Shown here in pieces: positions 19,956-32,719 of a DNA stretch of 43,125 nt. A program made the translations under genes and the position numbers. The notes below the pieces were generated by a model that ran no database searches, was not told where the DNA came from, and saw only the letters and a list, made by a program, of their open reading frames with translations. The stretch is from an uncultured Flavobacteriaceae bacterium (GTDB taxonomy: Bacteria; Bacteroidota; Bacteroidia; Flavobacteriales; Flavobacteriaceae): assembly GCA_905479625.1 (NCBI GenBank), contig CAJQNF010000112.1:1-43125 (forward strand), in the 5' to 3' direction. Position 1 is the stretch's first letter; every line of letters starts with the position of its first letter.

Positions 19956-20651
19956 ATGATGATGACTTCAATAAACAACAACTCCGGCCAGAATCCAGAA
20001 AAAAAAACATTAACCATTGTACACCTTTTGCAACCTTATACAAAACAACGTATCAGGGTTGGAGAAATTATGGGTTATTTTCCTAAGAATATGTATCAGT
20101 CAAATGAAATTATTGATGAGGTTGTTTTGGAGGCCTATGAACAGGGAATTCAAAAAAGTAAAAATGCTGAAGACCTGAGATTGGCCATGTTTGATATTTT
20201 GAATAGGCGCATATCAGCTTTGTATAAAGCCGAAGAATGGCATAAAGATTCGATAAGTACGAGGTATATACTTGAAGAAGAATTAAAACAATTGGAGGAG
20301 AATTTCACCACTGACGGGGGCAATGATTTGATTATGAATGAAGAGCTTGACGATATTTCTTATCATCAAAATGATTCCGGACCAAAAGGATTGCCCTATG
20401 ATGAGGAGGAAGAGGGCGTTAAAACTTTTTTGGGTCTGGACAAGATCAAACAAAATGAAAATTTTCATGACCGAAATACACTTCGTAAGGTTTATTATAA
20501 ACTTCCTGTCAACACCTCTAATATTGTTGATTTATATATTCTGGGAAAGCTGAGCTTTCATGAGATATCCGGAATACTGAAGATGGAGGTTGGGGAAGTT
20601 AAAGAAATTGTTAATTCTGTAAGAGAAACGATTAAAAATCAACTCGAATAA
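19956..20651 (+). CDS. Sigma-70-like small regulator, function unknown
   Basis: A 231-residue acidic protein that I do not recognise with certainty. Residues about 20-80 (VHLLQPYTKQRIRVGEI, then EIIDEVVLEAYEQG) resemble a weak sigma region 2. A long acidic middle (residues 105-165) follows, with a run of four Glu near DEEEEG. The C-terminal 45 residues (SNIVDLYILGKLSFHEISGIL, then a second helix) look like a sigma region 4 helix-turn-helix. That order suggests a divergent sigma factor or sigma-like adaptor. Three consecutive ATGs offer a start. It stands alone and is the last gene before the arginine operon leader, 87 bases before the first short Arg-rich frame, so a regulatory link is possible but unproven. 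Confidence 0.5.
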   Translation: MMMTSINNNSGQNPEKKTLTIVHLLQPYTKQRIRVGEIMGYFPKNMYQSNEIIDEVVLEAYEQGIQKSKNAEDLRLAMFDILNRRISALYKAEEWHKDSISTRYILEEELKQLEENFTTDGGNDLIMNEELDDISYHQNDSGPKGLPYDEEEEGVKTFLGLDKIKQNENFHDRNTLRKVYYKLPVNTSNIVDLYILGKLSFHEISGILKMEVGEVKEIVNSVRETIKNQLE

Positions 20652-20660
20652 TAGTTGATT
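20637..20660 (+). terminator. Possible weak terminator hairpin at the end of the sigma-like gene
   Basis: An 8-bp stem, AATCAACT paired with AGTTGATT around an 8-base loop, overlaps the stop codon region. It is AT-rich and the T-rich stretch after it is interrupted, so termination may be partial. It could separate the sigma-like gene from the arginine leader. Confidence 0.35.
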
Positions 20661-20738
20661 CTCAATAGATTTTGATTTTGATTGAAAAATGTTGAAAGTT
20701 TTCTTTTTCAGAAAGAATTAATATTGTAATATTGCAGG

Positions 20739-20810
20739 GTGAATACGAAAACGCTACATACTTCAGATAGAAAGAATCGCCGCCGCCCCTTGCGCCGCTT
20801 GGGCCAATAA
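20739..20810 (+). CDS. Candidate arginine leader peptide 1 (GTG start, 23 residues)
   Basis: GTG start, 23 sense codons, TAA stop at 20808. It begins MNTKTLHTSDRKN (GTG read as Met) and ends RRRPLRRLGQ. Six Arg codons occur: AGA, then three CGC in a row at 20778-20786 and two more CGC at 20793-20798. CGC is not the codon used most in the neighbouring genes, which favour AGA, AGG and CGT. A stop codon (TAA, 20727) closes the frame four codons upstream of the GTG, so no other usual start is available. The frame sits in a GC-rich patch inside very AT-rich flanks. Regulatory leader peptides for arginine control would have exactly this content. Translation is not shown. Confidence 0.5.
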   Translation: MNTKTLHTSDRKNRRRPLRRLGQ

Positions 20811-20853
20811 TTAGGTTAGATCAATTTTTCAATTCACATTTCAAATTATTACA

Positions 20854-20943
20854 ATGCATTTTCAGGACAATTTCAAAACGATACAAGTTTATAACAGTCA
20901 AACTTTGCTTCACCTTGTTCATGTTTCTCGCCGTCGCCCGTAA
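20854..20943 (+). CDS. Candidate arginine leader peptide 2 (ATG start, 29 residues)
   Basis: ATG start, 29 sense codons, TAA stop at 20941. It starts MHFQDNFKTIQVYNSQ and ends HVSRRRP, so three consecutive Arg codons (CGC, CGT, CGC) and one Pro codon precede the stop. It begins 43 bases after leader 1 ends and lies 84 bases upstream of the first arginine gene. A run of the regulatory amino acid right before the stop is the classic position for ribosome stalling. The RRRP string is shared with leader 1, though the rest of the two peptides is unrelated. An overlapping frame from ATG 20921 also exists but lacks this feature. Confidence 0.5.
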   Translation: MHFQDNFKTIQVYNSQTLLHLVHVSRRRP

Positions 20944-21027
20944 GGGTATACTATATTCTTGGAGAAAGGTGTGTCCATCTCTGCACAATCATTATATTAT
21001 TTCAAAAACTTACTTTAATTCAATACA

Positions 21028-21654
21028 ATGGAAATTGTAATTGCTACAGATAAACATATAAAATATGCCACTACCATCAGCCAGACTATCGATAAATCGG
21101 CAGAACAAAGAGGTACTGGTATCGCGAAAAGAACCCCCGAGTATGTTGAAGCAAAGATTAGGAATGGAAACGCTGTGATCGCATTAGATGGCGATAAGTT
21201 TGCAGGTTTTTGTTATATAGAAACATTTGGAGACAAGAATTTTGTCGTCCATTCCGGCTTGATCGTACATCCAGATTTTAGACATCAGGGTCTGGCAAAA
21301 AGGATAAAGACCAAAGTGTTTAAATATTCCCAGAAGAAGTATCCTGATTCAAAGATCTTTGGAATCACTACAGGATTGGCAGTGATGAAGATCAACTATG
21401 AACTGGGTTATAAACCGGTTACATTTTCTGAGTTAACTGATGATCCTGAATTTTGGAAAGGTTGTCAAACTTGTACCAATTATGATGTGCTGCAGCGTAC
21501 AAATAAGAAAATGTGCCTTTGTACAGGTATGTTGTATGATGGGAAAAAGGATGAGAAACAAGAACATCCCTATAATTCTAAAAGCCTTAGTAGACTGAAA
21601 AGAATTAAGCAAAGTTTGTTTTTGAAAAAGAAAGACCAGAGTAAGGACAAATAA
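21028..21654 (+). CDS. GNAT acyltransferase, probable first enzyme of arginine synthesis (N-acetyl- or N-succinylglutamate synthase)
   Basis: A 208-residue GNAT protein. The acetyl/acyl-CoA motif RHQGLAKRIK is at 85-94, after the beta strands FCYIETFG and SGLIVHPDF. Unusual for GNATs, a C-terminal cysteine cluster follows: C146-x2-C149 in GCQTCTNYDV and C163-x-C165 in KMCLCTG, a possible zinc site. The C-terminus is very basic. It is the first gene of the arginine operon, in the place where a glutamate N-acyltransferase is needed, because no ArgJ or classical ArgA is encoded in the operon. The Bacteroides thetaiotaomicron counterpart of such a gene has been reported as an N-succinylglutamate synthase. 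The acyl donor here is unknown. Confidence 0.65.
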   Translation: MEIVIATDKHIKYATTISQTIDKSAEQRGTGIAKRTPEYVEAKIRNGNAVIALDGDKFAGFCYIETFGDKNFVVHSGLIVHPDFRHQGLAKRIKTKVFKYSQKKYPDSKIFGITTGLAVMKINYELGYKPVTFSELTDDPEFWKGCQTCTNYDVLQRTNKKMCLCTGMLYDGKKDEKQEHPYNSKSLSRLKRIKQSLFLKKKDQSKDK

Positions 21655-21717: not shown

Positions 21718-22899
21718 ATGAAAAAATTAGTATTGGCATATAGTGGAGGTTTAGACACTTCTTATTGTGCAAAGTACCTCTCGAAGGTTGAAGGATTTGA
21801 AGTGCATGCCGTCAGTGTAAATACAGGAGGGTTTGAGAAAGAAGAGATTGCTTCAATCGGAGAGAAAGCAATTCAGCTTGGGGCAAGCAGTTATGTTTCG
21901 ATAGATGCCGTTCAAATTTTCTATGATAAGGTTGTGAAGTATTTGATATATGGTAATGTTCTTAAAAATAACACTTATCCACTTTCAGTGAGTGCTGAAA
22001 GAATTATTCAGGCGATTGAAATTGTAAATTATGCAAAGAAAGTTGGCGCCAACTACATTGCTCATGGAAGTACAGGTGCCGGAAATGATCAGGTTAGATT
22101 TGATATGATCTTTCAAACCCTGGCGCCCGAAATAGAGATCATTACGCCCATCAGAGATCTGAAATTATCGAGACAAACGGAAATCGATTTTTTAAAGGAA
22201 AATGGGTTGGATCTTCCATGGGAAAAAGCCAAGTACTCCATCAATAAAGGCCTGTGGGGTACAAGTGTTGGAGGAGAAGAAACCCTTACATCGCATGCCG
22301 GGTTGCCAAGTGAGGCCTATCCGAGTCAATTGGTCAAAAATGATGAAACTGATGTAAAACTGACCTTTGAAAAGGGTGAATTAATTGCAGTTAATGGTAA
22401 AAAGGATAGCCATATTAACAATATTGAAGCCTTGGAAAAGTTGGCTTCAGCCTATGCCATTGGCAGGGATATACACGTTGGAGATACGATCATTGGGATC
22501 AAAGGCAGGGTTGGATTTGAAGCAGCCGCTCCACTTGTAATCATAAAGGCGCATCATTTGCTTGAAAAGCATACCCTTACCAAATGGCAGCAGCATCATA
22601 AGGAACAGCTGGGAAATTGGTACGGGATGTTATTGCACGAAGGACAATACCTGGACGAGGTCATGAGAAATTTTGAAGTCTTTTTAACAGATACCCAAAA
22701 AAATGTGAGTGGAGACGTTTTTGTAACGCTTCATCCTTACAGATTTACACTGAACGGAATCGCGTCAAAACACGATTTGATGAACTCCTCTTTTGCCAGT
22801 TATGGAGAGACCAATGAAGGATGGACCGCTGATGACGCCAAAGGATTTATCAAAATTACTGCAAATCAGGGTAAAATATATAACCACGTAAATTCATAA
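21718..22899 (+). CDS. argG: Argininosuccinate synthase
   Basis: A 393-residue enzyme that joins citrulline and aspartate with ATP. The N-terminal AYSGGLDTSYCAKYL is the PP-loop for ATP. Citrulline/aspartate region signatures are IAHGSTGAGNDQVRFD and SINKGLWGTSVGGEE. Length is within the family range. It is 63 bases after the GNAT gene and two bases before argC. It catalyses the seventh step of arginine synthesis although placed early in the operon. Confidence 0.96.
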   Translation: MKKLVLAYSGGLDTSYCAKYLSKVEGFEVHAVSVNTGGFEKEEIASIGEKAIQLGASSYVSIDAVQIFYDKVVKYLIYGNVLKNNTYPLSVSAERIIQAIEIVNYAKKVGANYIAHGSTGAGNDQVRFDMIFQTLAPEIEIITPIRDLKLSRQTEIDFLKENGLDLPWEKAKYSINKGLWGTSVGGEETLTSHAGLPSEAYPSQLVKNDETDVKLTFEKGELIAVNGKKDSHINNIEALEKLASAYAIGRDIHVGDTIIGIKGRVGFEAAAPLVIIKAHHLLEKHTLTKWQQHHKEQLGNWYGMLLHEGQYLDEVMRNFEVFLTDTQKNVSGDVFVTLHPYRFTLNGIASKHDLMNSSFASYGETNEGWTADDAKGFIKITANQGKIYNHVNS

Positions 22900-22901
22900 A
22901 A

Positions 22902-23879
22902 ATGATCAAGGCAGGAATTATAGGAGGAGCGGGTTATACAGCTGGAGAGTTGATCAGACTTCTTCTGAATCACCCTGAGGTTGAGCTGGATTTTATCTAT
23001 AGCACATCAAATGCAGGAAATAAAATTCACGAGGTCCACAGGGATTTGTTAGGTGATACAGACATGAAGTTTTCTAGTAAAGTCAACCTTGATATAGATG
23101 TTTTGTTTTTATGCCTGGGTCATGGAAATTCTTCAGCCTTTTTAAAGGTGAATGAGTTTAGTAAGAAGACCAAAATCATTGACTTAAGTAATGATTTCAG
23201 ACTGACCAAGGACAGTTTTTTTATGAATAAAAAGTTTGTCTATGGCCTGACCGAAGTATTTAGAGAAGAAATCAGTAAAGCGCAATACATCGCAAACCCT
23301 GGTTGTTTTGCAACAGCTATACAATTAGGACTCCTTCCTTTGGCCAATGCATCTTTGCTAAAAGATGATATCCACGTAAACGCTGTTACCGGTGCAACCG
23401 GAGCAGGAGTTTCTTTGTCAAAAACAACCCATTTTACCTGGAGAGATAATAATTTTTCTCACTATAAAGCTTTTGACCATCAACACCTTGGAGAAATTAA
23501 TCAACACATCGAAATCCTTCAACCTGGTTTTGATCATGAGGTGAATTTTATTCCTAACAGGGGAAATTTTAGCAGAGGAATTTTTGCTACCGCTTATACC
23601 AAATATGACGGGAGTATTGAGGAGGCAAAAAGCTTGTATAAAGATTTTTATAAAGAGACTGTTTTTACTCATGTATCTGATCAGGAGATTTTCTTAAAAC
23701 AGGTGGTTAACACGAATAAATGTTTGATCCATCTGCAAAAACATAAAGATAAATTATTGGTGACAAGTGCGATTGACAACTTGTTGAAAGGAGCCTCGGG
23801 GCAAGCCATTGAAAATATGAACCTGATGTTTGGTTATAGCCAGTCAGCAGGTCTTAGATTAAAAGCTAACTTTTTTTAA
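22902..23879 (+). CDS. argC: N-acyl-gamma-glutamyl-phosphate reductase
   Basis: A 325-residue NADPH enzyme. The Rossmann motif GIIGGAGYTAGELIRLL opens the protein, and the catalytic cysteine is C135 in NPGCFATAI. It reduces N-acyl-glutamyl phosphate, made by ArgB, to the semialdehyde used by ArgD. In Bacteroidota it may work on N-succinyl rather than N-acetyl intermediates, which the sequence does not show. It starts two bases after argG, so they are translated together, and proC follows after nine bases. Confidence 0.95.
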   Translation: MIKAGIIGGAGYTAGELIRLLLNHPEVELDFIYSTSNAGNKIHEVHRDLLGDTDMKFSSKVNLDIDVLFLCLGHGNSSAFLKVNEFSKKTKIIDLSNDFRLTKDSFFMNKKFVYGLTEVFREEISKAQYIANPGCFATAIQLGLLPLANASLLKDDIHVNAVTGATGAGVSLSKTTHFTWRDNNFSHYKAFDHQHLGEINQHIEILQPGFDHEVNFIPNRGNFSRGIFATAYTKYDGSIEEAKSLYKDFYKETVFTHVSDQEIFLKQVVNTNKCLIHLQKHKDKLLVTSAIDNLLKGASGQAIENMNLMFGYSQSAGLRLKANFF

Positions 23880-23888
23880 AATGAACAT

Positions 23889-24686
23889 ATGAAAATAGCC
23901 ATCATAGGAGTGGGAAATTTAGGCTACTCAATAGCAGTAGGGATCTTAGGCCAGAAAAAGGAAATAAATTGTAAATCATTGTACCTGACAAAAAGGAATA
24001 CGACTTCTTTAAGTCATTTGGAAAAGGTATCTATGGTAAAAACTACTTCTGATAACAGACGTGCGGTTAAGTATTCAAATGTGGTCATTCTGGCTGTGCA
24101 ACCTGCTCAACTCATGGAAGTGTTAGACGAAATTAAAGATCTTATTGATCCAAAGAGGCACACGATTATCTCTGTTGCTACAGGCAGAAAGATAGACGAA
24201 ATTGAAGCTATGGTTAAGCCGGATGTACCGGTGATCAGGTGTATGCCGAACACGGCCATTTCTGTGGGCCAGTCTATGACCTGTATCAGCGCCAATGAAA
24301 AAGGAAAGGAGAATTTTCATATTGCCAAGACGATATTTAACGCCCTGGGCGAAACCATGTGTATTGATGAAAGCCTCATGCAGGCAGCAACTGTTATTTG
24401 TGCAAGTGGTATTGCCTTTTGGATGAGATTGATAAGAGCTACCACGCAGGGAGCTGTGCAATTAGGTTTTCATAGTGAGGAAGCACAAAAACTTTCGATG
24501 CAGACCTGTTTAGGCGCTGCAAGTTTACTGATAGATTCTCAAAGCCATCCGGAACAGGAAATAGATAAGGTAACGACACCTAGCGGATGTACCATAGAAG
24601 GATTGAATGAAATGGAACACCAGGGATTAAGTTCCTCAATTATCAAGGGACTGGTGACCTCATATGAAAAAATAAATCAGATTTAA
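23889..24686 (+). CDS. proC: Pyrroline-5-carboxylate reductase
   Basis: A 265-residue enzyme that makes proline from pyrroline-5-carboxylate. The NAD(P)-binding motif IIGVGNLGYSIA starts the chain; RCMPNTAISVGQSMT is the conserved dimer/active-site segment; and TTPSGCTIEGLNEME near the C-terminus matches the family signature (TSPGGTT...). It belongs to the proline branch but sits inside the arginine operon, between argC and argD. Confidence 0.93.
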   Translation: MKIAIIGVGNLGYSIAVGILGQKKEINCKSLYLTKRNTTSLSHLEKVSMVKTTSDNRRAVKYSNVVILAVQPAQLMEVLDEIKDLIDPKRHTIISVATGRKIDEIEAMVKPDVPVIRCMPNTAISVGQSMTCISANEKGKENFHIAKTIFNALGETMCIDESLMQAATVICASGIAFWMRLIRATTQGAVQLGFHSEEAQKLSMQTCLGAASLLIDSQSHPEQEIDKVTTPSGCTIEGLNEMEHQGLSSSIIKGLVTSYEKINQI

Positions 24687-24696
24687 GCGTATTGAT

Positions 24697-25851
24697 ATGG
24701 AACTATTTGATGTATACCCTTTGTATGATGTAAGCCCGGAAAGTGCTGAAGGATCTTATGTAACGGACAATAAAGGTCGAAAATATCTTGATCTTTACGG
24801 GGGTCATGGGGTGATCTCTATCGGTCATAGCCATAAGGACTATGTAGCAGCTTTAACCAGCCAGCTGAAGAAAATGGGTTTTTATTCTAATTCTATACAA
24901 AACCCTTTACAAGAAACACTGGCTCAAAAACTCGGAAGGCTATCCCAATGTGAAGATTATAATTTGTTTTTATGCAATTCAGGGGCCGAGGCCAACGAAA
25001 ATGCGTTAAAAATGGCTTCATTCGCCACAGGGAAAAGTAAGGTGATCGCATTTGAAAAAGCATTTCACGGCCGAACTTCAGCGGCTGTTGCAGCCACTGA
25101 TAACCCAAAGATCAATGCCCCATTGAACAGTCAACATGAAGTTGTATTTCTTCCCTTGAACGATGTAGCGTCTTTAGAAAAGGAACTCTCAAAAAAGGAC
25201 GTGGCTGCGGTGATCATAGAAGGGATACAAGGGGTAGGTGGTTTAAATGAAGGCTCTACTGCATTCTTCCAATCTTTAGAGAAATTGTGCAGACAATATG
25301 GAGCTATCCTTATTCTTGATGAAATTCAATCTGGTTATGGAAGGAGTGGAAAATTCTTTTCTTTTCAACATCATGGTATTCATCCTGACATTATTAGTAT
25401 GGCTAAGGGTATGGGGAATGGATTTCCTGTTGGAGGCATACTTATTTCCAATCACATAGAGGCATCATATGGACTATTGGGCACAACATTTGGTGGAAAT
25501 CATCTGGCCTGTGTAGCGGCTATTTCAGTGCTAGATGTGATTGAAAAGGAGCAATTAATGGACAATGTGAATAAGGTTTCATCACATTTTTTGGAAAGAA
25601 TCAAAGAGATCGATCAAATTAGATCTGTAAAGGGTAAAGGTTTGATGTTGGGCGTAACTTTTGACTTTCCCGTTGCTCAATTGAGGAAACAACTGATTTT
25701 TGAAGAGGGAATTTTTACAGGAGGATCTGCTGATCCGAATCTTTTAAGAATACTACCACCACTATCAGTAGAAACTGAAGAAATTGACTTTTTCATAGAT
25801 GCCTTAAAAAGCGTTCTGAAAAGCATTAATAATAGCGTAAAAAGTAACTAA
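24697..25851 (+). CDS. argD: N-acylornithine aminotransferase
   Basis: A 384-residue class-III PLP aminotransferase. The PLP lysine is K237 in ISMAKGMGNGFPVGG, with NSGAEANENALKMA, FHGRTSAA and LDEIQSGYGRSGK as expected. It converts N-acyl-glutamate semialdehyde and glutamate to N-acylornithine. It begins with a plain LFDVYPLYDVSPESAEG, as seen in Bacteroidota ArgD. The genes before and after it are proline genes. Confidence 0.94.
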   Translation: MELFDVYPLYDVSPESAEGSYVTDNKGRKYLDLYGGHGVISIGHSHKDYVAALTSQLKKMGFYSNSIQNPLQETLAQKLGRLSQCEDYNLFLCNSGAEANENALKMASFATGKSKVIAFEKAFHGRTSAAVAATDNPKINAPLNSQHEVVFLPLNDVASLEKELSKKDVAAVIIEGIQGVGGLNEGSTAFFQSLEKLCRQYGAILILDEIQSGYGRSGKFFSFQHHGIHPDIISMAKGMGNGFPVGGILISNHIEASYGLLGTTFGGNHLACVAAISVLDVIEKEQLMDNVNKVSSHFLERIKEIDQIRSVKGKGLMLGVTFDFPVAQLRKQLIFEEGIFTGGSADPNLLRILPPLSVETEEIDFFIDALKSVLKSINNSVKSN

Positions 25852-25856
25852 AACTC

Positions 25857-27053
25857 ATGGAGTCAATTTTATCTATAGAACAGAGAAATAATGTGTTGCT
25901 TTCCATGGCTCGCCTGGTGAGTGATCAACAAAATGATATTTTAAAGGCAAATGAGAAAGACCTGAAAGGAAATGACCAACTTGACCTTGCCATGTATGAC
26001 AGGTTAAAGGTTGATCAGGAAAAAATCAACGGCATGGTGCTTTCTTTGGAACAATTGGCCGCTCAGAAAGATCCGGTTGGTATTGAAAGGTTTCATTTTA
26101 AGCATGAGAATGGCTTGGATATCTATAATAAAACGGCCTCTTTTGGCACGATCATGATCATCTACGAATCAAGGCCCGATGTTACTATTGAAGCCGGAGG
26201 GATCGCTTTTAAATCAGGAAATAAAATTCTTCTTAAAGGAGGAAAGGAATCGTTGAATTCAAATCTGGCGATAGTTGATTTATGGCATAAAGCCCTTAAA
26301 GAAAATAAGGTGAGTAAGGATTGGGTTACGTATTTAAATTATGATCGTGAGGAGACAAGAGCATATTTAAAGCAACCGAAACAAAAGATCGATCTGATTA
26401 TTCCAAGAGGCGGTGAAAAGTTGATCGCATTTGTCAAACAACACGCTACCTGCCCGGTCATTGTGAGTGGAAGAGGTAATAATTTTGTGTATGTTGCCAA
26501 AGAAGCGGATCAGAAGAAGGCCATGCAAATCATTCTCAATGCGAAAACCGATAAGATCTCTGCATGTAATGCCCTGGATAAGGTGCTGATCAATAAAGGT
26601 TTACCGGGATATAATGAATTTGTAACTAGTTTGGTTGAAAACCTGCAGGAGCATAAAGTACAGGTTTTAGGCGCTGAAACGATGAAATCATTGAAAGGAG
26701 TTGAACCTGTATCAGGAGAAGAAGTTTGGTATGAGGAATTTCTTGATTATAAAATTATGCTGGGAGATGTGGTTTCAACTGAGGAGGCCATAAGAATGAT
26801 TAATAAGTTTGGTGGCGGACATTCAGCATCGATCATCACGGAAAACAATACGGAGGCCCATGCCTTTATGAGTGCAGTCGATGCGGCGGCAGTTTACCAT
26901 AATGCATCTACCCGATTCACAGATGGTTTTCAATTGGGTTTAGGGGGTGAATTGGCCATCAGCACAGATAAATTACACCAAAGAGGGCCAATTGGTCTTG
27001 AGCATTTGGTGACTAACAAATGGTATATATATGGGAATGGGCAGATCAGGTAA
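25857..27053 (+). CDS. proA: Glutamate-5-semialdehyde dehydrogenase (gamma-glutamyl phosphate reductase)
   Basis: A 398-residue ALDH-superfamily protein. The catalytic Cys is C237 in DKISACNALDKVL; IYESRPDVTIEAGGIAFKSGN and LIIPRGGEKLI are family signatures. It reduces glutamyl-5-phosphate made by ProB. Its 3' end overlaps the proB start by 23 bases, so the two are coupled. The order proA-proB is the reverse of the E. coli proBA operon. Confidence 0.95.
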   Translation: MESILSIEQRNNVLLSMARLVSDQQNDILKANEKDLKGNDQLDLAMYDRLKVDQEKINGMVLSLEQLAAQKDPVGIERFHFKHENGLDIYNKTASFGTIMIIYESRPDVTIEAGGIAFKSGNKILLKGGKESLNSNLAIVDLWHKALKENKVSKDWVTYLNYDREETRAYLKQPKQKIDLIIPRGGEKLIAFVKQHATCPVIVSGRGNNFVYVAKEADQKKAMQIILNAKTDKISACNALDKVLINKGLPGYNEFVTSLVENLQEHKVQVLGAETMKSLKGVEPVSGEEVWYEEFLDYKIMLGDVVSTEEAIRMINKFGGGHSASIITENNTEAHAFMSAVDAAAVYHNASTRFTDGFQLGLGGELAISTDKLHQRGPIGLEHLVTNKWYIYGNGQIR

Positions 27054-27816
27054 AAAGAGGGTACTCCTTAAAATAGGCACCAATACTTTGACCAAAGAGA
27101 CAAACCAGATCTCAAGAGGGAAGATAGAAGATATTGGGAGGCAGATTTCTCTATTAAATGAGGACTATGAGTTTGTCATTGTGAGTTCAGGGGCCATTGC
27201 CGTGGCCAAACAGTTTGTTAAGCTGGAATCAAATGGCAGGGAAATCAACGTTAAACAGGCGCTCGCTGCAATTGGCCAACCGCATCTAATGCGTATCTTT
27301 CAGGAGAATTTCAGGGAGTTAGGATTGCTCACATCGCAGTGTTTATTGTCATATGCTGATTTTAATCGTGAAAAGTCAAAAGAAAACATTGTCAATACAA
27401 TCAATGTCTTGATAGACAACCATTATATTCCGATCATCAACGAAAATGATACAGTGGCTACTGATGAGATCCAATTTGGTGATAATGATAAATTGGCAGC
27501 CTTAACAGCCGCATTAATCGGGGCTGACCTTGTCATTATAGCAACCAATACTGATGGTATTTATACCAAGAGTAGTATAGGAAATGACATAAAATCGACT
27601 ATAGAGGAGGTAAGGGATCTAAAGGAACTTCGAAATGAAATTGCCGATGGTAAAAGTTCACAAGGAACGGGAGGCATGCTGTCGAAAATAGAAGCCGCTG
27701 AAATATTAAAAAATGAAAAAATAGAAACTTGGATCGTAAATGGTATTGGGGATAATTTTATGATCAATGCCATGAATAAACAAATACCTTTTACTAAAAT
27801 TTTAAAAGATCAATAA
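27031..27816 (+). CDS. proB: Glutamate 5-kinase, short form without PUA domain
   Basis: A 261-residue amino-acid kinase. KIGTNTLTKE near the N-terminus binds ATP; VSSGAIAVAKQF, NENDTVATDEIQFGDNDKLAAL and TDGIYTKS are family signatures. E. coli ProB has about 367 residues with a C-terminal PUA domain, and this protein ends after the kinase domain. The start overlaps the proA 3' end; an ATG two codons later is an alternative. Its stop overlaps the argF start (TAATG). Feedback inhibition by proline may differ from that of the two-domain form. Confidence 0.93.
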   Translation: MGMGRSGKKRVLLKIGTNTLTKETNQISRGKIEDIGRQISLLNEDYEFVIVSSGAIAVAKQFVKLESNGREINVKQALAAIGQPHLMRIFQENFRELGLLTSQCLLSYADFNREKSKENIVNTINVLIDNHYIPIINENDTVATDEIQFGDNDKLAALTAALIGADLVIIATNTDGIYTKSSIGNDIKSTIEEVRDLKELRNEIADGKSSQGTGGMLSKIEAAEILKNEKIETWIVNGIGDNFMINAMNKQIPFTKILKDQ

Positions 27817-28778
27817 TGAATTATTTATCGGTTAAGGATATAGATTCGATTGCTGAATGGGTGTCAGAAGCGAGAATATTAAAGGAGAACCCTTTGGCAG
27901 ATAGTCATTTGGGTAAAGATAAAACCATAGGTCTATTGTTTTTTAACCCCAGTTTAAGAACCCGGTTAAGTACGCAAAAAGCGGCGCAAAACCTTGGTAT
28001 GACTACCATGGTTATGAATTTTGACAAGGAGGGTTGGGCCGTTGAATATGAAGATGGGATCATCATGGATCAGGGAAAATCTGAACATATCAAGGAGGCC
28101 GCTCAAGTCATTTCTCAATTTTGTGATATTATTGCGATCAGGGCCTTTGCTTCTTTGGAGGATAAGGAAAAAGACAAGGCTGAAATCGTATTGAACGGAT
28201 TCGCTAAGTACGCTTCTGTTCCCATAGTCAATATGGAAAGCTCGGTCGGACATCCTTTGCAGGCACTTGCCGACGCGATCACCCTCGAGGAAGACAAAGA
28301 CAGGTTAAAGGGGCGAAAGCCTAAAGTGATATTATCCTGGGCGCCGCATCCCAAAGCTTTGCCTCATGCAGTTGCAAATTCCTTTGTTGAAATGATGCAC
28401 AAACAGGACGCAGATTTTGTCATCACACACCCTAAAGGATACGAATTGGATCCTGAAATTACAGGAACAACCAGCATTGAATATGATCAGGCCAAAGCCT
28501 TTGAAGGAGCGGACTATATTTACACCAAGAACTGGAGTTCTTTCAACCAATACGGAATGGTTTTATCAAAGGATCCTTCCTGGATAATAAGTGCTGAAAA
28601 AATGGCTTTAACAAATGATGCCAGATTTATGCACTGTTTGCCTGTAAGAAGAAATGTAGTTGTCGCAGATGCTGTCCTCGACAATCCGCAGTCATTGGTG
28701 ATCAAACAGGCAAATAACAGGACTTTTTCGGCGCAGACAGTGTTAAAGAAAATTCTTAAAAATCTTAAGCAGGACTAA
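27816..28778 (+). CDS. argF: N-acylornithine carbamoyltransferase (N-succinyl- or N-acetylornithine type)
   Basis: A 320-residue transcarbamylase with carbamoyl-phosphate loop FFNPSLRTRLSTQKAA, the motif MHCLPVRRNVVVADAVLD, and VINMESSVGHPLQALAD. It resembles the acylornithine transcarbamylases of Bacteroides and Xanthomonas rather than ornithine enzymes. The residue that separates these types is in the segment GKSEHIKEA: Bacteroides fragilis succinylornithine enzyme has Pro and the Xanthomonas acetylornithine enzyme has Glu; here it is Ser89. Substrate is therefore not decided by this site. Overlaps proB by one base. Confidence 0.88.
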   Translation: MNYLSVKDIDSIAEWVSEARILKENPLADSHLGKDKTIGLLFFNPSLRTRLSTQKAAQNLGMTTMVMNFDKEGWAVEYEDGIIMDQGKSEHIKEAAQVISQFCDIIAIRAFASLEDKEKDKAEIVLNGFAKYASVPIVNMESSVGHPLQALADAITLEEDKDRLKGRKPKVILSWAPHPKALPHAVANSFVEMMHKQDADFVITHPKGYELDPEITGTTSIEYDQAKAFEGADYIYTKNWSSFNQYGMVLSKDPSWIISAEKMALTNDARFMHCLPVRRNVVVADAVLDNPQSLVIKQANNRTFSAQTVLKKILKNLKQD

Positions 28779-28789
28779 TAACTAAGCTG

Positions 28790-29569
28790 ATGAAAAAGCA
28801 ACTGAGTATCGTAAAAATAGGAGGTAATGTGATCAATAATTCAGAACAACTTGATTTGTTTCTTCATAATTTTGCCAAGTTGGATGGTTTGAAAATACTG
28901 GTGCATGGCGGAGGAAGGAGAGCAACCGAAATGGCTGATTCTTTGGGTTTACATCCTAAAATGATTGGAGGAAGACGGGTTACAGATGAGGCAAATTTAG
29001 AGGTAGTTACGATGGTTTATGCGGGATTGCTTAATAAGAATATCGTTGCAAAACTTCAGGCGAAAGCATGCAATGCATTGGGTTTGTCAGGTGCAGATGC
29101 GAATGTGATCAAAGCACATAAACGGGTCGTAAAAGAAATTGATTACGGCTTTGCCGGAGATATAGATGAGGTAGAAAACAAAGCAATTGCCCTATTTTTG
29201 AACGGAGGAATTACACCTGTATTTTCTGCTATTACGCATGATGGGCAAGGACAACTTTTAAATACGAATGCTGACACTATAGCGGCTGAACTGGCTAAAG
29301 GTCTCTCCCTTTTATTTGAAGTAGAATTAATATACTGTTTTGAAAAAAATGGTGTACTCCGGCAAGTGGATGATGATGATTCTGTTATAGATCAAATTGA
29401 TAAGATAACATATGAGCGGTTAAAGAAGGAGGGCGTAATTGCTGAGGGAATGTTGCCCAAGATGGAGAATTGCTTTGACGCTTTGCAGGAAGGCGTTCAT
29501 AAGGTACTTATCGGGAAACCTGAACTCATCTCGGATAAGCATATAAAACACACAACATTACTGTTATGA
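28790..29569 (+). CDS. argB: N-acylglutamate kinase
   Basis: A 259-residue amino-acid kinase. KIGGNVINN and LVHGGGRRATEMADSLGL bind ATP and substrate; NTNADTIAAELAKGL is a family signature. It phosphorylates N-acetyl- or N-succinylglutamate in the second step. It lacks the N-terminal helix of the hexameric, arginine-sensitive kinases, consistent with the short, E. coli-like form that is not allosterically inhibited by arginine, so control would need another level, such as the operon leader. Its stop overlaps the argE start by four bases. Confidence 0.94.
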   Translation: MKKQLSIVKIGGNVINNSEQLDLFLHNFAKLDGLKILVHGGGRRATEMADSLGLHPKMIGGRRVTDEANLEVVTMVYAGLLNKNIVAKLQAKACNALGLSGADANVIKAHKRVVKEIDYGFAGDIDEVENKAIALFLNGGITPVFSAITHDGQGQLLNTNADTIAAELAKGLSLLFEVELIYCFEKNGVLRQVDDDDSVIDQIDKITYERLKKEGVIAEGMLPKMENCFDALQEGVHKVLIGKPELISDKHIKHTTLLL

Positions 29570-30624
29570 TAAGCGAACTGGGCGATAAAGCAAAACAACT
29601 ATTGATCAACCTGATCAATACCCCGTCGTTTTCCGGAGAGGAAGATCAGACGGCTTTGCTCATAGAAAAATTTTTAAAGGATCACGGGATTTCCTGTAGG
29701 AGAGAAGTGCATAATATTTGGGCAGTGAATGAACATTTTGATGCCTCAAAGCCTAATATCCTATTGAATTCTCATCATGATACGGTAAGACCAAATAAAG
29801 GCTATACCAAAAATCCGCATAAAGCAGAGGTTGTTGATGGTAAAATTTATGGCCTGGGATCAAATGATGCAGGTGGATGCCTGGTTTCATTAATGGCCAC
29901 TTTTATTCATTTTTACAAACAGGAAAACCTGAACTATAATTTGATCTTATTGGCTTCGGCGGAAGAGGAAAGTTCTGGTAATCATGGTATTCGTTCAATG
30001 GTGCCTCTCATGCCTGAGATTGATTTTGCAATCATTGGAGAACCCACATTAATGCATCTTGCTATTGCCGAGAAAGGCTTATTGGTTCTCGATTGTTATG
30101 CACATGGTACGGCAGGTCATGCGGCTCATATACGAGGAGATAATTCAATTTACAAGGCGATGGAAGCCATTAGTTGGTTTGAATCTTTTAAGTTCCCTAG
30201 GGTGTCTGAAACGCTTCATGACACTAAAATGACCGTAACCCAGATCAACGCAGGAAGTCAGCATAATGTAGTGCCTTCAACCTGTCATTTTGTTGTGGAC
30301 ATCAGGGTAAATGACTTGTATTCCAATAAGGAAGTACTTGATCTCATAAAAGACCATGTTGGGGTTGAGGTAAAAGAAAGGTCTCTGAATTTGAATTCCT
30401 CCTCTATCCGAAAAGATCATGATATAGTTCTTGCCGGGGTTCATTTGGGAAGAGAGATCTATGGGTCACCTACCTTGTCGGATCAGGCGAATTTGAGCTG
30501 CCCTTCTTTAAAATTGGGCCCAGGAGATTCGTTGAGATCGCATACTGCGGATGAATTTATCTATGAAAAGGAGATCTTTGAAGGAATTGAGCTTTACATT
30601 AAAATTTTAAAAGAAATAGTATAG
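29566..30624 (+). CDS. argE: M20-family N-acylornithine/acylcitrulline deacylase (ArgE)
   Basis: A 352-residue M20 metallopeptidase. Metal-site motifs are LLNSHHDTVRPN, GLGSNDAGGCLVS, the catalytic EE in ASAEEESSG, and IGEPT; the dimerisation domain begins near ALIAEKGLLV. In Bacteroidota, the acyl group is removed from acylcitrulline after the transcarbamylase, so this enzyme most likely releases citrulline from N-acylcitrulline. It overlaps argB by four bases (ATGA-type) and lies 29 bases before argH. Confidence 0.88.
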   Translation: MISELGDKAKQLLINLINTPSFSGEEDQTALLIEKFLKDHGISCRREVHNIWAVNEHFDASKPNILLNSHHDTVRPNKGYTKNPHKAEVVDGKIYGLGSNDAGGCLVSLMATFIHFYKQENLNYNLILLASAEEESSGNHGIRSMVPLMPEIDFAIIGEPTLMHLAIAEKGLLVLDCYAHGTAGHAAHIRGDNSIYKAMEAISWFESFKFPRVSETLHDTKMTVTQINAGSQHNVVPSTCHFVVDIRVNDLYSNKEVLDLIKDHVGVEVKERSLNLNSSSIRKDHDIVLAGVHLGREIYGSPTLSDQANLSCPSLKLGPGDSLRSHTADEFIYEKEIFEGIELYIKILKEIV

Positions 30625-30653
30625 TCTTAAAAAGGCTTTTTAAAAAGAAACAT

Positions 30654-31946
30654 ATGAAACTTTGGGACAAAGGATTTAGTACGGATAAGAAAATAGACTT
30701 GTTTACTGTTGGTAATGACAGAGAACTTGATCTTGTACTTGCCAAATATGATGTAATTGGCTCACTCGCTCATGCTAAAATGCTGCATAAAATTGGCTTG
30801 CTCACCGCGAGTGAAATAAACCAGGTGGAGAAGGAGTTGGCTGAAATCACTAGCCTTATCGAAAAGGGTGATTTTATCATCGAAGAGGAATTTGAAGATG
30901 TACATTCCAAAGTGGAATATATGCTTACGGAAAAGTTGGGTGACACGGGTAAAAAGATACATACAGCACGCTCTAGAAATGATCAGGTCCTAGTGGATGT
31001 TCATTTGTATTTGAGAGAAGAAATAAAAGAAATCAGAGGAATGATCATCGATTTTTTTAACCTCTTGATGAGATTATCAGAATCCAATAAAGACAACCTC
31101 TTACCGGGATATACGCATTTTCAAGTGGCCATGCCTTCTTCTTTTGGGATGTGGTTTTCTGCTTATGCCGAAAGTTTGATCGATGATATATACATGTTAA
31201 ACGCTGCCTATAGCGTGGTAGATCAAAACCCTTTGGGATCAGCAGCAGGTTATGGGAGCTCATTCCCAATAGATCGCGATTATACCACTGCAGAAATGGG
31301 GTTTAGTGAGTTAAAAGTAAATTCTGTTGCTGCACAAATGAGCAGGGGTAAAACGGAGAGAACCGTCGCTTTTGCAATGAGTTCGGTCGCGGGTACCCTT
31401 TCAAAATTTGCCATGGACATTTGTTTGTATATGAGTCAGAATTTTGGATTTGTTTCTTTTCCTGATGAGTTGACAACCGGATCGAGTATCATGCCGCATA
31501 AAAAGAATCCTGATGTTTTTGAGCTCATTAGAGGAAAATGCAATAAAATTCAAGCGCTGCCCTATGAACTTACCTTGATTATTAATAACCTGCCAAGTGG
31601 TTATCACAGAGATCTGCAATTATTAAAAGAGGGGTTGATTCCAAGCATCCAAGCCTTAAAATCATGCTTAGAAATGTTTACTTTTTCATTAAGCACTATT
31701 GAAGTCAATAAAAATATTGTAGACAAAAAAATCTATGATTACCTGTTTACCGTGGAGGAGGTGAATAAACTTGTTCAGGACGGAGTTCCTTTTAGAGATG
31801 CTTACAAAATTGTTGGTGGAAAAGTAGGCGACGGTAGTTTTATGCCAAATAAGGAAGTTGTACATACCCATATTGGTAGTGTTGGAAATTTATCCTTAGA
31901 CAGGATAAAGGCTAAGATGGAAAAGGCAAATGCCCATAATTCGTAA
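30654..31946 (+). CDS. argH: Argininosuccinate lyase
   Basis: A 430-residue member of the fumarase/aspartase superfamily. GSSIMPHKKNP at 276-286 is the signature carrying the catalytic Ser; TARSRNDQV at 104-112 and THFQVAMP with H155 are also conserved. It splits argininosuccinate into arginine and fumarate. It is about 30 residues shorter than the E. coli enzyme, the C-terminal end being reduced. It ends the arginine part of the operon; a methyltransferase follows after 20 bases. Confidence 0.95.
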   Translation: MKLWDKGFSTDKKIDLFTVGNDRELDLVLAKYDVIGSLAHAKMLHKIGLLTASEINQVEKELAEITSLIEKGDFIIEEEFEDVHSKVEYMLTEKLGDTGKKIHTARSRNDQVLVDVHLYLREEIKEIRGMIIDFFNLLMRLSESNKDNLLPGYTHFQVAMPSSFGMWFSAYAESLIDDIYMLNAAYSVVDQNPLGSAAGYGSSFPIDRDYTTAEMGFSELKVNSVAAQMSRGKTERTVAFAMSSVAGTLSKFAMDICLYMSQNFGFVSFPDELTTGSSIMPHKKNPDVFELIRGKCNKIQALPYELTLIINNLPSGYHRDLQLLKEGLIPSIQALKSCLEMFTFSLSTIEVNKNIVDKKIYDYLFTVEEVNKLVQDGVPFRDAYKIVGGKVGDGSFMPNKEVVHTHIGSVGNLSLDRIKAKMEKANAHNS

Positions 31947-31966: not shown

Positions 31967-32719
31967 ATGAATTGGAACGTATCTCTTTATAATGAAAAAC
32001 ACGGTTTTGTCTATCAGTATGGTTCCCAACTGATCGATTTACTCAATCCCAAAGAAGGAGAACTAATCCTTGATTTAGGTTGTGGTTCAGGGCAATTGAC
32101 TTCTAAGATTTCGGAGTCGGCATCGGTAATTGGAATCGATAGTTCTGAAGAGATGATCAAAGCCTCTCAGGATTTGTTTCCTGAAATAGATTTTTATCAG
32201 ATGAATGCCGATTCATTTTCGTTCGATCAGTCCTTTGATGCCATTTTTTCAAATGCCGTTTTACATTGGGTAAAAGACCAAAAGACGACAACAACTAATA
32301 TGTTCAATCACTTGAATACAGGAGGGAGGCTGGTAGTTGAATTCGGAGGGTATGGAAATGTAGCAACCATTGTAGATGCTTTGAGATGGAGTTTGAAAAA
32401 TCACGGATTTGATGAAAATGCTGTGCTGGAAAGATGGTATTTCCCGAGTATAAGTGAATACACCAGCCTTTTGGAAGATGCTGGTTTTGAAGTTAGCCTT
32501 GCGCAGCTTTATGACAGGCCTACGCTTTTAGAGAGTAAAAATGAAGGAATAAAAGATTGGATTGAAATGTTTGGAACTCATTTTTTCCAAGGAATCGACA
32601 CAAAAGATAAGGCAGCTATTTTAACTGAAGTGCAAGACAAGGTAAGGTCAACATGTTTTAAAGATGGTCAATGGCATGCAGATTATCGCAGAATAAGAAT
32701 TATGGCGGTTAAAAAATAG
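31967..32719 (+). CDS. Class I SAM-dependent methyltransferase
   Basis: A 250-residue methyltransferase with SAM motif LDLGCGSGQLTSKI at about 35-48, an acidic SAM-ribose site VIGIDSSEEMI and motif IFSNAVLHWV. This pattern is close to trans-aconitate 2-methyltransferase-like proteins. The substrate is unknown. It follows argH by 20 bases with no terminator between, so it is probably read through from the arginine operon. It ends two bases from pabB, which is transcribed in the other direction. Confidence 0.82.
   Translation: MNWNVSLYNEKHGFVYQYGSQLIDLLNPKEGELILDLGCGSGQLTSKISESASVIGIDSSEEMIKASQDLFPEIDFYQMNADSFSFDQSFDAIFSNAVLHWVKDQKTTTTNMFNHLNTGGRLVVEFGGYGNVATIVDALRWSLKNHGFDENAVLERWYFPSISEYTSLLEDAGFEVSLAQLYDRPTLLESKNEGIKDWIEMFGTHFFQGIDTKDKAAILTEVQDKVRSTCFKDGQWHADYRRIRIMAVKK

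Follow-up and report, generated by a model that had tools for sequence, protein, structure and literature searches.

Introduction

Attenuation by leader peptides is described in textbooks, mostly from work on Proteobacteria and Actinobacteria. The leader of the arginine/proline operon described here resembles the his, trp, thr and leu leaders in that a short ORF at the start of the transcript is enriched in codons for the product of the operon, favours certain synonymous codons and is followed by hairpins. It departs from them in several respects: the amino acid is arginine, two frames stand in series in some lineages, a GTG lies at the predicted +1, the last regulatory codons are placed inside a hairpin (H1) and no intrinsic terminator was found.

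Within the same family, hints of leader-peptide attenuation ahead of amino-acid operons have been described in F. psychrophilum, together with structured 5' elements upstream of hisG and pheA (PMC9723704); the section of that paper on these candidates mentions neither arginine, nor tandem frames, nor a codon restriction. Arginine itself is sensed by consecutive Arg codons of a uORF in the Salmonella orf34/speF system, where a hairpin past the stop codon and Rho are also involved; this system differs from the present one in that it controls an ornithine decarboxylase, in the equivalence of rare and frequent Arg codons and in its conserved gammaproteobacterial core, as reported in PMC6386406. 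Similarly, in S. aureus rbfL the Arg codons of a uORF, read by one scarce tRNA, are reported to sense arginine limitation, but these are AGA/AGG codons and a biofilm regulator is repressed through a covered ribosome-binding site (PMC13009471). A study of uORF motifs deals with other phyla, and its main text contains no word beginning with 'Bacteroid' or 'Flavobacter' (PMC8632094). Among the matches listed from the open-licence literature, none described an arginine leader peptide of a Bacteroidota arginine operon.

The leader analysed here would be a variant of ribosome-mediated attenuation, a principle barely described in this bacterial group. If the proposal is true, a whole class of Bacteroidota uses leader-peptide attenuation for arginine, in the present case without an evident terminator. 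Moreover, the strict choice of CGY codons would constitute a natural test of selective-charging theory (which isoacceptor is the first to lose its charge), AGA being the common Arg codon of the genome, and the H1+H2 pair would provide a concrete marker for the annotation of arginine operons.

Layout of the leader and of the arginine/proline operon

The window, i.e. the whole stretch of 43,125 nucleotides from an uncultured Flavobacteriaceae bacterium that was analysed, contains the following features in the leader and the operon.

20727-20734, + strand: predicted -7 type promoter element, TAATATTG, with one mismatch to TAHHTTTG
20739-20810, + strand: uORF1, distal leader peptide, GTG start, 23 codons, MNTKTLHTSDRKNRRRPLRRLGQ; six Arg codons (AGA, CGC x3, CGC x2) at codons 11, 14-16 and 19-20
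20739-20744, + strand: 5' arm (GUGAAU) of a possible closing helix, including the uORF1 start codon, folding with 20832-20837
20832-20837, + strand: 3' arm (AUUCAC) of the possible closing helix, partner of 20739-20744
20854-20943, + strand: uORF2, proximal leader peptide ending in SRRRP-stop, ATG start, 29 codons, MHFQDNFKTIQVYNSQTLLHLVHVSRRRP
20929-20937, + strand: Arg codons of uORF2; the frame closes with CGC CGT CGC CCG TAA
20935-20948, + strand: H1, hairpin over Arg, Pro and stop codons, GCCC-GUAA-GGGU, with an additional C-G pair in many relatives
20944-20952, + strand: arm of an alternative helix, made of the 3' arm of H1 plus 5 nt, with 9/9 pairs to the H2 apex at 20968-20976
20961-20982, + strand: H2, hairpin with a nearly invariant GG-UGNGU-CC apex and compensatory changes
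21028-21654, + strand: GNAT acetyltransferase, operon gene 1 (Pfam Acetyltransf_1/_7; top NCBIfam match under the cut-off)
21718-31946, + strand: argG, argC, proC, argD, proA, proB, argF-type, argB, argE-like and argH-like genes, from the gene annotation of the window

Together with the GNAT gene, the genes of the last row make up the eleven genes of the operon. Its argF is of the N-acetylornithine-carbamoyltransferase type, the argE-like gene encodes an M20 peptidase and the argH-like gene belongs to the lyase family.

An earlier note on this DNA had described both frames, and their coordinates, their codon make-up and the gap of 43 bases between them were all exact to the base in the ORF list of the window. 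The same note placed the second frame 84 bases before the first arginine gene. The distance from the uORF2 stop to the gene at 21028 is indeed 84 bases, but this adjoining gene encodes the GNAT acetyltransferase and argG comes second. The motif CGCCGYCGCCC occurs twice in the window, both times in the leader frames, and was absent from 100 dinucleotide-preserving shuffles; its 13-base form was found nowhere but in the leader in the 2.67-Mb assembly, which is 84% complete.

A sigma-70 promoter scan of the leader region is uninformative for this phylum. Just upstream of the leader, on the same strand, a gene at 19956-20651 shows weak sigma-70/ECF similarity (E 8e-8, under the cut-off). Past the other end of the operon, a SAM-dependent methyltransferase gene (31967-32719, same strand) begins 20 bases after the argH-like gene, and may represent a twelfth gene of the operon transcript.

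The proximal frame in relatives and its codon choice

The GNAT protein was present in 61 of 100 genomes, the window's own counted in. Upstream regions were taken from 59 of these 61 loci, leaving aside the contig-edge loci of G011 and G096, and from 80 named loci, which gave 126 distinct regions. The proximal element, recognized by its H1/H2 pattern, was found in 108 of them. The 100 genomes had yielded 44 Flavobacteriaceae loci, of which 43 carry the element (L003-L045). The exception, L052, is a divergent member of the family in which the peptide ends in FRRRLLA and H2 has another loop. As the search pattern fixes the GG..CC apex of H2 and one CGC, it favours both, and counts over the 108 loci omit the 18 regions without the pattern, namely L046-L061 (15 loci of other families and L052) and the Lutibacter loci L111 and L131. 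Since many of the 65 named loci among the 108 are closely related, most weight was given to the 43-genome set. Loci referred to below as Lutimonas belong to the same genus as the window.

In L111, an Arg-rich frame about 60-140 nt before the GNAT start, MKINKLHTTNVRRFVRRPLRA (..VRRFVRRPLRA), is accompanied by an H1-like hairpin and by an H2 apex that reads, by eye, GA-UGAGU-UC instead of GG-UGAGU-CC, so that the pattern missed a true variant. The frame of L131 ends in RMRRIVR.

The frame of uORF2 was set by the CGC of H1, its openness being no criterion, and the 75 nt before this codon, the last for Arg, were scored. The uORF2 frame was stop-free in 43 of 43 Flavobacteriaceae genomes, compared with 8 and 3 for the other two frames; over all 108 loci the corresponding numbers were 105, 44 and 6. 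The peptide ends in RRP-stop in 99 of the 108 loci. Arg occupies the two codons preceding the pattern-fixed CGC in 83 and 104 loci, respectively, and Pro follows it in 107, then a stop codon in 102. The N-terminal portion, in turn, drifts freely in sequence and length across loci. Changes in the Arg codons of uORF2 within Lutimonas were synonymous in 8 cases and non-synonymous in 21, indicating that only the final Arg run is kept. Judged by this conservation, uORF2 behaves as a real, translated leader peptide.

The choice of Arg codons in this run is strict. Within the five codons before the fixed CGC, 92 of the 96 Arg codons in the 43 genomes were CGT or CGC (50 CGT, 42 CGC), the remaining 4 were CGA/CGG, and AGA/AGG did not occur. 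The same five codons in the 108 loci gave 259 CGT/CGC out of 263, the rest again being CGA/CGG and none AGA/AGG. The GNAT genes of the same 43 genomes use CGT/CGC for 54 of their 327 Arg codons, and in the operon of the window (n=105) these codons account for 8.6% and AGA/AGG for 80%. According to the usual decoding rules, CGT and CGC are the codons of tRNA-Arg(ACG). Separate tRNA-Arg genes with ACG, TCG, TCT and CCT anticodons are found in a complete genome of the same genus; ACG and TCG were seen in the window's own, incomplete assembly. Selective tRNA charging has been reported to account for leader codon bias in other systems (PMC1183508). Part of the CGY restriction could come from a constraint on the RNA, asking for a pyrimidine at the third base, and not from decoding.

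Proline was also considered as the main signal and rejected: the nearly constant Pro after the Arg run is constrained by H1, and many peptides contain that single Pro. It may have a minor role as a signal.

A distal frame restricted to some lineages

uORF1 is present in 13 of the 19 Lutimonas loci and absent from the other 6. A distal Arg-rich frame was also detected in 14 loci of other genera, which brings the tandem arrangement to 27 of 108 loci (L022 and L132 were omitted by hand, their upstream frame having been judged part of a neighbouring gene), and the same rule finds no frame of the uORF1 type in the 65 named loci of other genera. With 6 of 19 Lutimonas loci and 65 of 65 named loci lacking uORF1, the tandem is not a general rule. 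The two consecutive leaders of the earlier note are thus real in the window but lineage-restricted, and the comparison provides good support for a putative sensor.

Where uORF1 occurs in Lutimonas, the motif RR-x-P-x-R is kept in 13 of 13 loci, and stops within the uORF1 interval were found in 0 of 13 loci in frame 0, compared with 13 of 13 in frame +1 and 12 of 13 in frame +2. Twelve non-independent pairs showed 16 synonymous and 8 non-synonymous changes at Arg codons, and 12 and 70, respectively, at the other codons.

Relatives in which both frames were lacking or disrupted had been named in the earlier note as the observation to look for. The 75-nt stretch of the uORF2 frame proved free of stops in all 43 genomes and in 105 of the 108 loci, while uORF1 is missing from the 6 Lutimonas loci. 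Likewise, the expectation that the Arg runs are kept while the rest drifts holds for uORF1 and for the final run of uORF2, but not for the other Arg codons of uORF2. On this comparative evidence both frames behave as translated leader peptides with the Arg codons as their conserved part, ahead of an arginine/proline operon: argG is found downstream of GNAT in 93 of the 93 loci, out of 108, with more than 1 kb of downstream sequence.

An element of the TAATATTG type is located exactly 4 nt ahead of the GTG in 13 of 13 Lutimonas loci with uORF1. As probable promoters of F. johnsoniae are described with a spacing of 4-5 nt from such an element to the start site (PMC6847099), the GTG would be the first codon of a leaderless message, with the +1 of the transcript predicted at 20739 or 20740. 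Short 5' leaders are uncommon in the phylum: 87% of the predicted F. johnsoniae leaders are longer than 10 nt (PMC6847099), and about 3.7% of the 5' UTRs of B. thetaiotaomicron are below 10 nt.

The start codon of uORF1 could also be paired. The closing helix appears as GUG:CAC in 12 of 13 Lutimonas loci and as AUG:CAU in five loci of other genera (L031, L033, L035, L176 and L177). In the window alone the helix is weak (shuffle p 0.09), and the distal segment of the window folds no better than shuffles (z +0.3). Over 33 distal segments, the starts of some of which were placed by hand, the mean fold z was -1.8 versus +0.1 for a coding control, with the helix reaching p <= 0.05 individually in only 7 of the 33 sequences. 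From these folding predictions, the start-codon helix probably exists in the group but is unproven for the window.

Two Lutimonas loci without uORF1, L011 and L019, have instead a three-codon frame, ATG AAA AGA TAG, near the predicted transcript start, adjoining a small inverted repeat noted by eye (GATAGTT..AACTATC). Three loci of one other genus of the family (L176, L177 and L179) present a distal-type frame, LHITSLSRTN..SPEVR, with an ACUUC-UCCC-GAAGU hairpin; their start-codon region can pair with an arm further downstream (UUUAUUCAU in L177), and H1/H2 were not seen in them.

Two hairpins at and after the uORF2 stop codon

H1 reads CGCCC-GUAA-GGGUG and variants in the 43 genomes, and overlaps the last Arg codon, the Pro codon and the stop codon. 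H2 follows about 15 nt later as GGAGAU-A-GG-UGNGU-CC-AUCUCC and variants. In the 43 sequences, 87.4% of the H1 cells were paired with little variation, so that the support for H1 comes from conservation and not from covariation, and 91.9% of the H2 cells were paired, with changes on both sides in 5 of its 8 pairs. For both hairpins together, 90.2% of cells were paired and 46 cells carried both-side changes versus 15.6 in shuffled data (0/500); six pairs were concerned, five of them in H2. Two Flavobacteriaceae loci outside the 108 (L178 and L111) have GA..UC in place of the GG..CC apex, by eye, which is a compensatory change. The idea that H2 mimics a Shine-Dalgarno sequence was discarded because a base that would need to pair varies.

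A covariance model of H1+H2 yielded one strong match in the window's own genome (E 1.7e-18), the next one (E 1.34) being at chance level. In the 100 genomes it yielded 44 strong matches (E <= 3.2e-9), one per genome and all adjoining the GNAT gene, 43 of which are matches by construction since their sequences were built into the model. The partial locus of G011 was matched as well. No other strong copy was found in the 100 genomes under strict filters with 47 candidates scored per genome, a setting that may lose weak copies. There were four weak further matches (E 4e-4 to 2.5e-3): two correspond to L205 and L208, another lies about 0.5 kb from an alaS-like gene, with a small ORF on either side, and the last within an mnmA-like gene on the opposite strand, both genes being named by eye. 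An Rfam scan of the window and of 20650-21060 gave no match, even at E <= 1.

Arginine-rich frames in other families of the class

GNAT was found in 101 of 295 genomes of the class. Among 29 newly fetched class-level loci, which are the best matches and not a random sample, 22 have an upstream frame with at least 3 Arg in its last 14 residues, where shuffles predict 3.8; when only other families are counted, the numbers are 18 of 23 best-matching loci and 3.4 expected. Examples of the ends of these frames are ...RIRNRRPSRA, ...FRPSRRPHGGIC, ...SPRRRPGLPAC and ...PVRPVFYIRR. No Arg-rich uORF was found in the remaining 7 of the 29. A later hairpin with a five-base YNNGY loop was detected in 12 of 29 folded loci, a partly different set with 25 from other families, and 10 of the 12 come from these (10/25). 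With Arg-rich uORFs in 18 of the 23 loci of other families, the arginine uORF occurs widely across the class, whereas the RNA around it changes.

In the second hairpin of the arginine leaders, YNNGY loops were noted in L185-L188, L193, L194 and L202 (other orders), in L046, L048 and L049 (another family) and in L052, in the variants UACGU, UUCGC, UUCGU, UAUGC, CGAGC, CAUGU and UCCGU, with no clear U-tract. Two loci from 0.6-Mb genomes, L053 and L056, have no Arg-rich uORF by the counting rule; the upstream frames of both were noted as Tyr-rich (MKHYSYYYYQ.. in L053). In L053 the GNAT frame continues, by eye, into argG-like sequence, a possible fusion.

A more general picture can be put forward only tentatively, and we rate its chances as somewhat below even. 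Arginine synthesis in Bacteroidia would be under the control of ancient leader-peptide attenuators, with the regulatory codons in a stop-codon hairpin, a second hairpin without a U-tract and some output factor; their last regulatory codons would nearly all be read by one tRNA-Arg (ACG), and some lineages would have added a GUG-first sensor whose start re-pairs, allowing one reading per transcript.

Proposed mechanism

We consider it probable that ribosomes read this 5' leader as an arginine sensor for the arginine/proline operon. The comparison supports that the frames are translated, that Arg and the codon class are conserved, that H2 is an RNA hairpin and that the leader is specific to this operon; from these features we infer how the sensor would work. 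When charged tRNA-Arg(ACG) runs short, ribosomes would slow down or stall on the CGU/CGC run of uORF2. A stalled ribosome would cover the 5' arm of H1 and block this hairpin, and the 3' arm of H1, the linker and H2 would then fold otherwise than after normal termination and release, constituting a putative H1/H2 switch. Arginine shortage would in this way raise the expression of the operon. In some lineages only, uORF1 would be a second sensor in series that starts at or within 1-2 bases of the 5' end; its start codon may re-pair with RNA further downstream, so that initiation would be possible only until this RNA has been transcribed.

Output of the leader and alternative readings

As to the output, transcription that stops early, with no strong intrinsic terminator involved, appears likelier than a purely translational effect, and this stop would be of the Rho type or would occur at a weak terminator at H1 in some species. 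A weak hint at a Rho-type step comes from the stretch between H2 and the GNAT start, in which C exceeds G in 101 of 108 loci (0.173 vs 0.065; the values for 18 other genes of the window are 0.135 and 0.109).

Among the alternatives, control of translation or mRNA stability survives best. Leader ribosomes would alter access to the GNAT start or RNA decay, leaving transcription unaffected, and both the lack of a strong terminator and the Salmonella speF precedent, in which Arg codons are reported to be joined with Rho and RNase G (PMC6386406), would agree with it. However, 45 nt separate the end of H2 from the GNAT start codon in the window, and the intervening sequence is A/T-rich (A.39 and T.37 over 108 loci), so that this start is not visibly sequestered; we regard such control as unlikely, although a serious candidate.

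A classical attenuator of the his/trp type, with H1 as the 1:2 helix, the alternative helix as the 2:3 antiterminator and an intrinsic terminator afterwards, seems less likely than that. For the alternative helix the controls gave mixed results. At least 7 of its 9 pairs can form in 84 of 107 loci (L032, which has no GGG, was left out), and the RNA of the window past a masked Arg run and stop folds into the 9-bp alternative helix and not into H2, at one of three mask positions. For the linker, 0 of 1000 permutations reached the observed value, but shifting the register by 5-6 nt gives a value just as high; pairing at the middle position is seen in only 21 of 107 loci, and removal of the 5' arm of H1 gave a mean alternative-pairing probability above 0.3 in only 31 of 108. 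Relatives conserve the alternative helix only partly. When the terminator rule was re-implemented, H1 together with a U-rich tail passed it in 41 of 108 loci, compared with 5.0 expected from base shuffles, but the window is not among the 41. A terminator like that of the his leaders, which the comparison drawn in the earlier note implied, was not found either: the terminator tool returned no intrinsic terminator-like site in 20600-21100. H2 was ruled out as an intrinsic terminator, the longest T run within 16 nt after it being at most 3 in 98 of 108 loci. By comparison, all five Flavobacteriaceae genomes tested (L270-L274) have a his leader peptide (...LHHHHIHTCTQAR and variants) some 100-200 nt ahead of hisG, and the long terminator hairpin after it (AACCCGUUUGA..UCAAACGGGUUUU and variants) passes the same rule in 5 of 5. 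The lack of a terminator in the present leader is thus neither a property of the phylum nor an effect of the tool.

A structured RNA bound by a protein or a small ligand, with the reading frames incidental, is improbable to us. It would explain the almost invariant GG-UGNGU-CC apex of H2 in the 43 sequences, though this apex is favoured by the search pattern; it would not explain why the uORF2 frame is kept against both other frames, why Arg pairs stay in frame despite intervening codons or why Arg-rich uORFs persist in other families although the RNA differs, and the Rfam scan gave no match at E <= 1.

Proline ahead of a stop may slow release, and the fungal arginine attenuator peptide and SpeFL sense arginine in the style of nascent chains; to our knowledge, such sensors require a conserved peptide for stalling. 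That free arginine acts here on a ribosome that has reached the stop codon and still carries the ...RRP peptide, as RRP directly before the stop in 99 of 108 loci could suggest, is the least probable of these readings, given that the remainder of the uORF2 peptide drifts in sequence and length and only its end is conserved.

Thr leaders in the same family

Thr/Ile-rich leader peptides were identified 60-200 nt upstream of the aspartokinase gene in 5 of 5 genomes tested (L275-L279). Together with the his leaders, likewise present in 5 of 5 genomes, these predicted peptides show that the family uses leader peptides. The thr leaders end in TTPLG-stop, IITP-stop or similar, and pass the terminator rule in 2 of 5 cases. 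They share with the arginine leader a C-rich/G-rich stop-codon hairpin like H1 and differ from it in their Thr/Ile codons. By this stop-codon hairpin and by the terminator results, the Arg and thr leaders look similar, and both look unlike the his leaders.
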